The translations under genes were made by a program, and so were the position numbers. This document shows positions 48,628 to 52,308 of a DNA stretch of 64,000 nucleotides, piece by piece. The DNA is taken from NCBI GenBank assembly GCA_947038405.1, contig CAMQVY010000001.1, positions 1-64,000 of the forward strand. Reading direction: 5' to 3'. This DNA is from an uncultured Rikenellaceae bacterium (lineage in GTDB: Bacteria; Bacteroidota; Bacteroidia; Bacteroidales; Rikenellaceae). Positions within the stretch are counted from its first letter, which is position 1. Every line of letters begins with the position of its first letter. A model generated the notes under the pieces. The model was given only the letters and a program-made list of their open reading frames with translations. It searched no databases and had not been told where the DNA came from.

Positions 48628-49281
48628 ATGTTACATATATTAAATGAAACCAACACAGTTCTCAACAAATTCATCGCAGAACTACGAGATGTAAATATCC
48701 AACAAGATAGCATGCGCTTCAGACGCAATCTTGAGAGAACTGGGGAGATAATGGCATATGAGATCAGTAAGACATTTGAGTATGAATCACAAGATGTAGA
48801 GACGTCTCAAGGAGAGGCTATTGTTGCGCTACAAACAGATAAAGTAGTAATTGCAACAATACTACGAGCAGGCATTCCATTTCATCAAGGTTTTTTAAAC
48901 TACTTCGATGATGCTCAAAGCTCTTTTATATCATCATATCGCAAGTATAGCAAGGATAACTCTTTCAACATCAAGGTTGAATATATATCTTGTGGTGACA
49001 TTACAGATAAAATATTAATTCTAGTTGATCCAATGTTGGCCACAGGCTCATCTCTACTTCTTGCCTACAACGCACTCATAGAGAAAGGCGGAATTCCCAA
49101 ACATACACATATAGCTACATGTGTTGCAAGCGAAGAGGGCATTGAGTATGTAACAAAACACGTATCACCTGAAAATGTTACAGTTTGGAGCTGTGCTGTA
49201 GATTCGGAACTAACAGTAAAGTCATACATTGTTCCAGGCATTGGTGATGCTGGAGATCTAGCTTACGGAGATAAATTATAG
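48628..49281 (+). CDS. upp: Uracil phosphoribosyltransferase
   Basis: This 217-residue salvage enzyme makes UMP from uracil and PRPP. The PRPP-binding loop ILVDPMLATGSS is intact. The uracil-binding C-terminal segment YIVPGIGDAGDLAYG is present. Length is close to bacterial Upp. It ends at a strong bidirectional terminator, after which the phage-like segment begins on the opposite strand. Confidence 0.96.
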   Translation: MLHILNETNTVLNKFIAELRDVNIQQDSMRFRRNLERTGEIMAYEISKTFEYESQDVETSQGEAIVALQTDKVVIATILRAGIPFHQGFLNYFDDAQSSFISSYRKYSKDNSFNIKVEYISCGDITDKILILVDPMLATGSSLLLAYNALIEKGGIPKHTHIATCVASEEGIEYVTKHVSPENVTVWSCAVDSELTVKSYIVPGIGDAGDLAYGDKL

Positions 49282-49295
49282 AGTAGACTACATAT

Positions 49296-49348
49296 AAAAA
49301 AAGGATCAGATTACTCGCTTTTATACGTTATAATCTGATCCTTTTTTT
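49296..49348. terminator. Bidirectional terminator between upp and the terminase gene
   Basis: Two perfect 18-base arms (49296-49313, 49331-49348), including GGATCAGATTA, with flanking A- and T-runs, serve both convergent genes. Confidence 0.85.
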
Positions 49349-49370
49349 ATATATTATTTGATCTAGTCTA

Positions 49371-50810
49371 TTATCCTGAGAATCTTATTGCTTTGACTCT
49401 TTTACTAATTGAATCAACGACTTCCCTCTCAACTATTCCTGTCAACACATCAGGAGCATCGTGCCATCTATTGGCATGGTATTCTCGTTTATAGCTTGTA
49501 ATATGATTATATAAATCATTCCATCTCACTCTCCAATCCAGAGGCATCCGAATATATGTTGTAACGGTTGATGAGTTTGAGATAATTCTAGCCTCCTTAT
49601 TTCCACTTTGGTGAAACCACTCTATCTTCGCCATTGGAGTCAACCTTGCAACAGCTCTTGCAAATCCCCTTCCTCCATTATTACTCTCAACAGCAACAAC
49701 CCTTGTTTTAGAGGCGTTAATCATATTAGCCACCATTGGTTCGGTTTTTTCCATTGGCTCACGAGAGTAGACGATATCTGTTATATATACTATGCCGGCT
49801 CGATCTACTTGATATGATATTGAACATAAGTAGTCATCTCCCGTATCAGCCGTATCTGTATAGTTCGCCAGTTTTACAATATCCGATGGGAGTATTGTAT
49901 ATGTAATGAAATTATTTCCATATAATAATCCATGTGCTGAAGATGGTTTCCCTTGGTACATACAAGCGAATCTTATTGGATCGAGGTTTTGTTTCTCTTT
50001 TAGCAACTCTAAGTTATGCCTAGCACTCCATAATGGAGCTCCAATTTTTCGCGGATCTATTTGATATGGCTCACCCTCTTTTATCGCCTCAAAGTTTAGC
50101 AGATACCACCCTTTAAATCCTTTTTTAATCTGTTTCCAATTTGTCAATTGAATCATAGGTTCTATTGATGTTAACTTACCAATCAAATCCTCCTCATGCC
50201 ACCTCGTAAATACAATTAACTCCGAAGAGGTATTGTGCATTCTTGTCTTCACAACAGAGGTATACCACTCCCAACAGTTCTCTCTAATAGTTGGAGAATT
50301 TGCCTCCATTGCATCTTTATAAAGGTCATCTAATATAAATACATCGACTTGATTCCCCGTCAAAGATCCTTCACGTCCTACACTCATAAGTTCACCGTTG
50401 TAACCAATAATCTCGACTTGATCTGCCGTACGGATATAATTTACAGAGTTAGCGGATCTATTTTTAAGGCTTTTAATCGTAGTATTAGGAAATATCTCCG
50501 TGTACTCTTTAGAATCGATTAATCTTTGAACTCTACGATTAAATCTATTTGCCAAAGTCCCACTATATGATGCAATTGCAACTCTTAGTTCTGGGTTTAA
50601 TCCAAGCATATATGCAGGAAGAAGTACAGAGGCACCGAGCGATTTTCCGTGTTGTGGCGGAATCGACACGATTAATTTTTTTATTTTTCTAGTTGCAAAT
50701 GCTTCCAAAATTCTATAATAAGATTTATGAAATTTTGTTGATTGCAAATAAGGAGCGACCAGTTCAGTGTATTGCTGAAAGGCTATTTCCGCTCTATTAA
50801 TTTTAGGCAT
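49371..50810 (-). CDS. Phage terminase large subunit (TerL)
   Basis: This 479-residue DNA-packaging motor protein looks intact. The ATPase domain has Walker A PPQHGKS (Lys56), Walker B VDVFILDD (Asp161/Asp162) and the FTRWHEEDL coupling-type motif near 201-209. The RNase H-like nuclease domain shows acidic residues in YTDTADTGDD (Asp319), VVAVESNNGG (Glu375) and HDAPDVL near the C-terminus. No small terminase, portal, capsid or tail gene is present nearby: it stands between upp and rpmH, accompanied only by a small unknown gene and a repressor. It is either a prophage remnant or a retained gene; all motifs being intact argues against long neutral decay. Confidence 0.9.
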   Translation of the reverse strand: MPKINRAEIAFQQYTELVAPYLQSTKFHKSYYRILEAFATRKIKKLIVSIPPQHGKSLGASVLLPAYMLGLNPELRVAIASYSGTLANRFNRRVQRLIDSKEYTEIFPNTTIKSLKNRSANSVNYIRTADQVEIIGYNGELMSVGREGSLTGNQVDVFILDDLYKDAMEANSPTIRENCWEWYTSVVKTRMHNTSSELIVFTRWHEEDLIGKLTSIEPMIQLTNWKQIKKGFKGWYLLNFEAIKEGEPYQIDPRKIGAPLWSARHNLELLKEKQNLDPIRFACMYQGKPSSAHGLLYGNNFITYTILPSDIVKLANYTDTADTGDDYLCSISYQVDRAGIVYITDIVYSREPMEKTEPMVANMINASKTRVVAVESNNGGRGFARAVARLTPMAKIEWFHQSGNKEARIISNSSTVTTYIRMPLDWRVRWNDLYNHITSYKREYHANRWHDAPDVLTGIVEREVVDSISKRVKAIRFSG

Positions 50811-51154
50811 TTATTAGATTATTGAATAGGTTATGTTTGTGGTGGAGTGTTGTGGGCTTTATTGAGCGTCCCCAAAGATAGGATTTAAAGATACACCACA
50901 ATTAAGAAACTATTTAAACTCAACATCACGCATCTACGACTATTATCAATAATTGATAGTCCTCGGTATTCGAGGGCTCAATTGACCATAGTAATCGAGA
51001 TTTGATTAGTTACAATACGATTTAAAAAGTTATTAACTTGAATTCACAGGAGCGTCCTCAGATATGGGAATAATTCATTGCACTCCACCACTAACCTAGA
51101 TATGATTATATATGAAAGATCTATTGATCAATTATTAAACTTCTATAAAGTTTC
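50811..51154. other. 344-base gap with inverted repeats and a hairpin
   Basis: No coding gene is seen. GTGGTGGAGTG (50839-50849) and CACTCCACCAC (51081-51091) are exact complements in a longer imperfect inverted repeat of about 23 bases. Inside, GAGCGTCC occurs twice in direct orientation (50864-50871, 51050-51057). A compact hairpin region contains TATCAAT-A-ATTGATA (50944-50958) and CCTCG-GTATT-CGAGG (50961-50975). It could be a structured leader of the terminase transcript, a small RNA or a relic of a mobile element. Confidence 0.5.
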
Positions 51155-51457
51155 TTACTCTATCAAATTTATGGGTAAAAACTCTTTAAACTCCTGCCAT
51201 GAAAAGCTATTATATACTTCACCCTCTCTTTGGTATGTTTTAAACTCCCACCATACAGGGGTAACATCAATAATTATATCGTGTGCGCCCTCAGGCAATA
51301 CAATAGTTTTTTTATCTATTATGAGAGATGTAATAAGAGTTGAGTATAAATCCTCTGTATCATACTCAATTGATCCAGAGAAAAAGTACTTTTGATCTAT
51401 ATCTACAAGCAATTGCTCTGCAATATCTTTGTATATTTTATCAGTTATTATTAGCAT
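51155..51457 (-). CDS. Hypothetical 100-residue protein in phage-like segment
   Basis: I do not recognise the family. The protein is acidic, without signal peptide or membrane segments. It has an aromatic motif PVWWEFKTYQREG around residues 67-79 and a C-terminal SWQEFKEFLP. It lies upstream of the terminase on the same strand and divergent from the S24 repressor, so it would be the first gene under repressor-controlled transcription if the region works like a phage switch. A reading frame on the opposite strand overlaps it but has no recognisable feature. Confidence 0.55.
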   Translation of the reverse strand: MLIITDKIYKDIAEQLLVDIDQKYFFSGSIEYDTEDLYSTLITSLIIDKKTIVLPEGAHDIIIDVTPVWWEFKTYQREGEVYNSFSWQEFKEFLPINLIE

Positions 51458-51507
51458 GATTAAATTTTATATCATTATTTGAACATAGAGGAGTTTAGAC
51501 TGGCATA

Positions 51508-51527
51508 ATAAATGTTTATACATTTAT
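51508..51527. promoter_or_regulatory. Candidate operator of the XRE/S24 repressor
   Basis: ATAAATG and CATTTAT form a perfect 7-base inverted repeat with a 6-base spacer (TTTATA). It lies between the divergent unknown gene and the repressor gene, just upstream of the repressor promoter. Assignment as operator is inference. Confidence 0.35.
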
Positions 51528-51537
51528 GACGTTAATG

Positions 51538-51568
51538 TTGCTAATGTAAGTTAGAAATATTAACTTTG
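51538..51568 (+). promoter_or_regulatory. Candidate promoter of the XRE/S24 repressor gene
   Basis: TTG (51538-51540) is followed after 20 bases by TAACTTTG (51561-51568), an exact -7 match, 68 bases before the start codon. Confidence 0.5.
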
Positions 51569-51636
51569 CACTACAAAGATACATTCAATTATTGTATTTC
51601 CAAATAAAAAATTGGATTAATTTACAAATATAACTT

Positions 51637-52308
51637 ATGAAAACACGTATTAAGCTATTACGCAAAGAGTTAGGAATGACTCAAGAAGTCTTTGCAAAAC
51701 ACCTTGGGATAGGCAAAAGTGCCCTATCTATGATTGAAACAGGAAAAGCATCCTTATCTGAACGAAATAAAAATATATTAATTCAAGATTTGAACGTCAA
51801 TCCAGATTGGATCGAAGGTGGCATTGGCGAAATGCTTAATGCACCTAAAGATGTAGTAACATTCAAGAGAGGTCGAGAGAACACATTACCATTGCAGAGC
51901 GTACCACTATATAACATTGAGGGAACGGCTGGACTGATCCCCCTTTTTATGGACTCATCTAACGCAGAACCGATAGACTACATCCACATACCTAACTTAC
52001 CAAAATGCGATGGAGCGATCTATATTGTTGGAGACAGTATGTATCCACTTCTTAAGAGTGGAGATATAATTTTGTATAAAAAGATTAATAATATTGATGA
52101 TATTTTTTGGGGTGATATGTACCTACTCTCTGTTGATATAGATGGCGAGGAGTACGTTACGGTGAAATATATTCAGAAATCAGACAAAGAAGGTTTTGTT
52201 AAATTAGTTAGCCAAAATCAGTATCATGGAGATAAAGATGTTGAGATCTCACGCATTCGAGCACTAGCATTTATCAAGGCTAGTATCAGGATGAACTCCA
52301 TGGGTTAA
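51637..52308 (+). CDS. XRE-family repressor with S24 (LexA/CI-like) peptidase domain
   Basis: This 223-residue regulator has an N-terminal helix-turn-helix (about 10-50, MTQEVFAKHLGIGKSALSMIE) and a C-terminal S24 domain. The catalytic Ser134 is in VGDSMYP and Lys177 in VTVKYI. An Ala-Gly pair (residues 98-99, GTAGL) precedes the Ser by 35 residues, the spacing seen for the self-cleavage site of LexA and lambda CI. It therefore has the hallmarks of a DNA-damage-inducible autocleaving repressor. It is divergent from the unknown gene and terminase, consistent with a phage immunity switch. Confidence 0.88.
   Translation: MKTRIKLLRKELGMTQEVFAKHLGIGKSALSMIETGKASLSERNKNILIQDLNVNPDWIEGGIGEMLNAPKDVVTFKRGRENTLPLQSVPLYNIEGTAGLIPLFMDSSNAEPIDYIHIPNLPKCDGAIYIVGDSMYPLLKSGDIILYKKINNIDDIFWGDMYLLSVDIDGEEYVTVKYIQKSDKEGFVKLVSQNQYHGDKDVEISRIRALAFIKASIRMNSMG

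Follow-up and report, generated by a model that had tools for sequence, protein, structure and literature searches.

The three genes between upp and rpmH in the 64,000-nucleotide stretch of DNA analysed here (the window), which comes from a 2.38-Mb Rikenellaceae draft genome of 86 contigs, probably constitute the packaging-and-control locus of a domesticated, vertically inherited capsid system of phage origin, for which a gene transfer agent (GTA) is the most likely identity. As judged from gene content, most genomes of the family carry one terminase large subunit (TerL), one portal, one HK97-type capsid and one head protease, which are co-inherited and, in most genera, unlinked. The loci are phage-derived, vertically inherited, constrained, dispersed and free of integrase and replication genes, and these are the features of the genomic definition of a GTA (PMC9662315) that are testable here. 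The safer statement would be that of a domesticated capsid system with its motor under its own repressor. Packaging of host DNA and its transfer, the two functional hallmarks of a GTA, are predictions from the genes here, and a VLP long-read study of 2026 reported no GTA-like packaging for Rikenellaceae, though they were abundant in the total DNA of its three donors (PMC12946183); for these reasons we speak of a 'putative' GTA.

The terL locus between upp and rpmH

The interval from 49371 to 52308 contains exactly three genes, all with open reading frames, and no further phage gene was found between upp and rpmH. The upp gene, whose end is at 49281, has a perfect 22-bp hairpin with a T-run behind it (49292–49352), and rpmH comes after the repressor gene. 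The first gene, terL (49371–50810, minus strand), encodes a terminase large subunit of 479 amino acids which matches PHROG 38 (E 2e-84), Terminase_6N (3.5e-9) and, in the nuclease domain, TIGR01630 (6.5e-19); a PF03354 search of the same genome gave no match, the TerL fitting other models. Walker A (PPQHGKS, residues 51–57) and Walker B (ILDD, residues 159–162) are both intact, as are the RNase-H residues D319, D322, E375, D451 and D454. Among 107 distinct TerLs of the family, the lysine of Walker A, both Walker B aspartates (D161 and D162) and the RNase-H aspartates and glutamate are invariant.

Co-directional with terL is orf100 (51155–51457, minus strand), which encodes a small alpha/beta protein of 100 amino acids. 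Profile searches with orf100 returned no family match, and its confident predicted model (pLDDT 94) had no significant fold match in the PDB or in a viral library. We regard orf100 as a candidate terminase partner or regulator. The third gene (51637–52308, plus strand) encodes an XRE/S24 repressor with HTH_3 and Peptidase_S24 domains, and its self-cleavage residues A98-G99, S134 and K177 are each retained in 73–77 of about 77 relatives. A preliminary description of this DNA had listed only a TerL, a 100-residue protein and a divergent XRE/S24 repressor at this site, with intact ATPase and nuclease motifs in the first and a LexA-like Ala-Gly, Ser, Lys set in the last, and each of these points was confirmed. 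It saw no portal or capsid, which holds for the interval; elsewhere in the genome, portal, capsid and protease genes are found on another contig. Two further features of the interval, to which it did not refer, are a structured gap before terL and a promoter region with a palindrome.

The 344-nt gap between orf100 and terL (50811–51154, minus strand) has a strong predicted fold and contains an 18-nt inverted repeat (arms at 50832–50849 and 51081–51098) and direct repeats of GAGCGTCC at 50864 and 51050. This element is single-copy in its own genome and has no match in Rfam. Both arms are conserved in the sister species (G001) while the core between them has diverged, and the element is absent from the cassette loci searched in other genera and so is genus-specific, being represented by only two distinct sequences. 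We asked whether the gap could be a packaging site or a conserved RNA and rejected this: it is structured and its arms are kept within the genus, but it is absent elsewhere.

Between orf100 and the repressor gene lies a divergent promoter/operator region (51458–51636) with a palindrome-like sequence and -7 boxes. The palindrome-like TTCAATTATTGTA (51584–51596) adjoins the Bacteroidota -7 box TATCTTTG (minus strand, 51574–51581), which faces orf100-terL, and TAACTTTG (51561–51568) faces the repressor. A TTCA-N5-TGAA dyad directly upstream of TAnnTTTG, the Bacteroidota -7 box, is present at 45 of 77 family loci and at none in shuffled sequences; the copy in the window is imperfect. The dyad is probably an operator that acts on the orf100-terL promoter.

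Conservation of the trio and an unlinked head operon

The sister species carries the same trio between the same flanking host genes, with ~81% nucleotide identity over the window. Its TerL is 92% identical to that of the window at a dS of about 1.35, where synonymous sites are near saturation. By the Nei-Gojobori method, for which dS values of such height are rough, dN/dS between the two species is 0.034 for TerL and 0.015 for the repressor, and 0.045 and 0.047 for the host genes upp and hflX. A TerL relative occurs in 227 of 250 family genomes and in 106 of the 110 near-complete ones, mostly in single copy and at about 50–67% identity, with orthology of the 227 assigned by similarity and the context of the cassette looked at in about 80 loci. 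These 80 loci were fetched by name (Alistipes, Tidjanibacter and unnamed Rikenellaceae), and nearly all have the order repressor, orf100, TerL, the repressor being divergent from the other two. Their host flanks vary, no other phage genes adjoin the cassette in the loci fetched, and orf100 is about 28–44% identical in nearly all of those outside the genus. Internal stops were found in 3 of 133 TerL matches. By these sequence comparisons, the trio is of ancient origin, has been passed on vertically and evolves under strong purifying selection.

A head operon of about 8.2 kb is present on contig C2 of the same genome, between an ABC-transporter gene and infC-thrS. Its genes are, in order, orf135, orf349, orf798, a ClpP-like head protease, an HK97-type capsid, orf169, the portal and a DUF6712-like connector, and this order recurs in relatives. 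Profile matches identify the head maturation protease (PHROG 94, 5e-44), the capsid (PHROG 1623, 4e-10) and the portal (PHROG 11226, 4e-22); additionally, the Phage_portal model gives a weak match, usually one per genome, in 57 of 60 near-complete family genomes. The terL and head loci lie on different contigs, and their distances to the contig ends put a minimum of about 69 kb between them. No integrase or replication genes were found in the neighbourhood of either locus. The preliminary description had offered a domesticated packaging module as one reading and had proposed a test for phage genes elsewhere that this TerL could serve. Comparison of the interval in relatives finds the trio conserved family-wide with no other phage genes at the site, in agreement with such a module, and the operon on C2 provides candidates for the genes to be served.

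Relative to the sister species, the portal is 93% and the capsid 89% identical (dN/dS 0.031 and 0.058), and orf349, orf798, the protease, orf169 and the connector evolve faster (dN/dS 0.12–0.24, with 0.12 for both orf349 and orf798). While orf135, orf349 and orf798 are kept in the main clade, orf798 is missing in genera g8 and g14, and its predicted model is too poor for use (pLDDT 47). In some relatives a holin gene (PF05105, 5.8e-11) and a lytic-enzyme-like gene stand at the end of the operon; the latter was detected in 8 of 24 genomes and was not found in the window's own genome. In two Alistipes-group sequences (L127:1775-3253 and, from G119, L224:6554-7756) the DNA-uptake gene comEC follows the lysis genes, which is suggestive for a system of DNA transfer, though with two sequences only we took comEC for a chance neighbour. 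At two other loci (L266:6998-7264 and L124:7503-7601) the protease domain is apparently lost, and the capsid gene is preceded just by the C-terminal, scaffold-like portion of the protein.

The clusters yielded neither a tape measure nor a tail tube. Matches to the tape-measure model TIGR01760 occur in 10 of 24 genomes and were rejected as part of the system, as they sit in separate phage-like or contractile-tail-like loci. One such match is on contig C18 of the window's own genome (L234/L235), whose 43.5 kb, with nearly all genes on one strand, resemble an entire phage or prophage of this bacterium, distinct from the capsid system. Others, in G014, G058, G020 and G119 (L239, L242, L243 and L238), have conserved neighbours and resemble a contractile tail or injection system.

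The two loci are inherited together. A single-copy portal is present in 30 of 30 TerL-positive genomes and absent from 8 of 10 TerL-negative ones (Fisher p 6e-7, a value that ignores phylogeny). The TerL-negative genomes come from genera g2, g10, g12 and g21, and the two exceptions that bear a portal are drafts of 93–94% completeness. Across 29 shared genomes, trees of TerL, the portal and the host marker ThrS are correlated (Mantel r 0.71–0.81, against a null maximum of 0.45) and have 15–16 of 26 splits in common, against a null maximum of 3–4. Genera are mostly grouped in all three trees, with G052 and G048 as exceptions.

The distance between TerL and the head genes varies from genus to genus. 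TerL, protease, capsid and portal are close together, with the connector alongside, in G014, G008 and G027, which belong to the deep-branching genera g8 and g14. In G014 the repressor is followed by orf78, the TerS-like orf88, TerL, orf91, protease, capsid, portal and connector; orf88 is shorter than the 141-aa TerS candidate of a phage fragment in the sister species (L006, described below). No TerS gene was seen beside the window's TerL, TerS being hard to recognise by sequence. TerL and the head genes are separated by 11–13 kb in three g19 genomes, by about 215 kb in G009, by about 755 kb in G048 and by more than 1 Mb in G100. The simplest history would be that of one contiguous ancestor which broke up yet stayed functional.

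No convincing copy of the terL-type palindrome was found ahead of the head operon, so that control of both loci in common is unproven. An operator common to the terL and head promoters was rejected: a copy is suggestive in G036 alone, and none was matched in the window's own genome. The head promoter instead carries a TTGAC/TAnnTTTG pair in several genomes. Given this difference between the promoters, the packaging motor may be the regulated step.

Viral relatives and alternative readings

In a quickly built, midpoint-rooted tree with a sampled set of 86 viral TerLs, those of the family group in a single clade that is separated from the viral ones with a support of 98. A single origin of the family TerLs is favoured by this tree, not proven. 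The nearest viral sequence is contig L296, whose TerL is 54% identical to that of the window and about 60% to Alistipes-group copies; downstream of its TerL, this contig carries tail genes in a similar order. Bacteroides phage B40-8 and its group are also among the closest viral TerLs (about 47% identical to the window TerL). Both belong to phages or viral contigs, and their TerLs fall outside the family clade.

For the head genes, no phage record was found to have the family portal or capsid within a complete phage. Portal relatives in 50,697 phage records were limited to two short unannotated gut-virome contigs with the same cluster, and IMG/VR yielded only a few 4–13-kb fragments with the portal; both scans used short exact peptide patterns, which can miss relatives. 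One of the IMG/VR fragments, of 12.9 kb, has rnhB and a NUDIX gene at its borders and is host chromosome. Portal matches occur in 12 of 339 genomes of other Bacteroidales families, the full-length ones being at most 37% identical. Among these are small capsid-portal clusters with distant portal relatives in G513 (L280) and G544 (L278); in G513, the only case checked, the cluster has an unrelated Terminase_3-type TerL and a beta-roll (ice-binding-like) protein. The sister species additionally contains a genuine phage fragment (L006, contig C84) with a ParB/methyltransferase gene, a TerS candidate, a TerL (57% identical), a capsid and a portal that belongs to an unrelated family (PHROG 7376).

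The same loci could encode domesticated DNA-packaging capsids with a benefit other than transfer, such as killing by a PBSX-like particle, the disposal of DNA or the altruistic lysis of cells that are damaged. PBSX-like defective prophages are domesticated and their capsids hold host DNA, though PBSX is one contiguous prophage that kills, in contrast to the unlinked motor and head of Rikenellaceae. The genomic evidence for such a benefit equals that for a GTA, the faster change of orf349 and orf798 is as expected of receptor-binding or killing parts, and the tail, to the extent that it was recognised, is incomplete. However, the constraint on portal, capsid and the nuclease-bearing TerL is about that on housekeeping genes, and in a pure tail-type killing particle they would be superfluous. 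We consider a benefit other than transfer unlikely. A tailocin, a tail without head, portal or terminase, was rejected since capsid, portal and TerL are all present.

It is much less probable that the loci represent a phage satellite that forms capsids, or a prophage lineage that disperses slowly and is still mobilised by a helper. In favour of this, the gene set is compact and divergent capsid-portal clusters exist in other Bacteroidales families, with the unrelated TerL in G513. Against this, no integrase stands beside either locus, the loci are unlinked, their trees follow the species marker, and the sister species has the same site with the same host genes. The satellite origin raised by the preliminary description is disfavoured by these findings together with the age, vertical inheritance and strong purifying selection of the trio.

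We give equally little credence to TerL acting alone as a nuclease in a defence or DNA-damage module, with the head operon as an independent domesticated element. TerL, a cleavable repressor and orf100 do make up a stand-alone cassette. PADLOC, however, had no match for TerL or orf100 and only generic HTH matches for the repressor, which leaves the defence role proposed earlier without support, though a new system would be compatible with that result. The head genes argue against it: in three genomes, from two genera that branch deeply, TerL, protease, capsid and portal are neighbours, and TerL and portal tend to occur or to be missing together. Lastly, the recent deletion remnant also proposed earlier is scarcely credible, for although the site holds three genes only, the trio is ancient, vertical and kept in most of the family, the low dN/dS of TerL reflects strong purifying selection, catalytic residues are invariant and internal stops are rare.

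Comparison with known transfer agents and proposed mode of action

The closest functional precedent for the putative GTA is FpGTA of Faecalibacterium, a probably podovirus-like agent with two operons about 125 kb apart (PMC12946183). Similar to the Rikenellaceae system, FpGTA belongs to a gut bacterium and has a head operon of about 10 kb, with parts split between distant loci. FpGTA also has holin and endolysin genes, of which the Rikenellaceae show counterparts in some genomes, and a small terminase with no obvious DNA-binding domain (PMC12946183). Unlike it, FpGTA is found in another phylum and has its TerL inside the head operon, FpGTA particles and packaged host DNA were shown whereas the Rikenellaceae system is known from genes, and no S24 repressor-terminase locus was found described for FpGTA (PMC12946183).

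RcGTA and the Rhodogtaviriformidae likewise are vertically inherited in a bacterial order, have a TerL clade apart from viruses and have dispersed genes (PMC9662315, PMC6854486). The RcGTA TerS has no DNA-binding domain, which is paralleled by the absence of a recognisable full-length TerS beside the Rikenellaceae TerL (PMC6854486). In RcGTA, TerL is part of the core cluster and control is exerted by host regulators such as GafA (PMC9662315, PMC6854486), whereas the Rikenellaceae TerL is apart from the head genes and under its own phage-type repressor. No GTA was found described for Bacteroidota in the open-access literature searched.

In the mechanism we propose, DNA damage or another signal would cause the S24 repressor to cleave itself, opening the orf100-terL promoter. 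TerL would then engage the portal of capsids whose proteins come from the unlinked head operon. Lacking a recognisable site-specific small terminase next to its gene, it would package short chromosomal headfuls indiscriminately. Particles would exit by lysis, for which several relatives have the holin and lytic-enzyme genes at the operon end, and the DNA would be delivered to kin via a short tail of orf135, orf349 and orf798. The chances are about even that this is a Bacteroidota GTA with a single origin near the base of the Rikenellaceae, in which the detached motor under a DNA-damage-type repressor acts as a capsid-filling switch.

A lone terminase beside a repressor is not necessarily a dying prophage. 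If the GTA reading is true, the Rikenellaceae system would represent an independent phage domestication in which motor and repressor were split from the capsid genes, and this split would make it possible to test directly what controls such systems and for what reason they are retained. Rikenellaceae (Alistipes and its kin) are abundant in the gut, and a functional GTA would give them an unrecognised, family-wide route of gene exchange.
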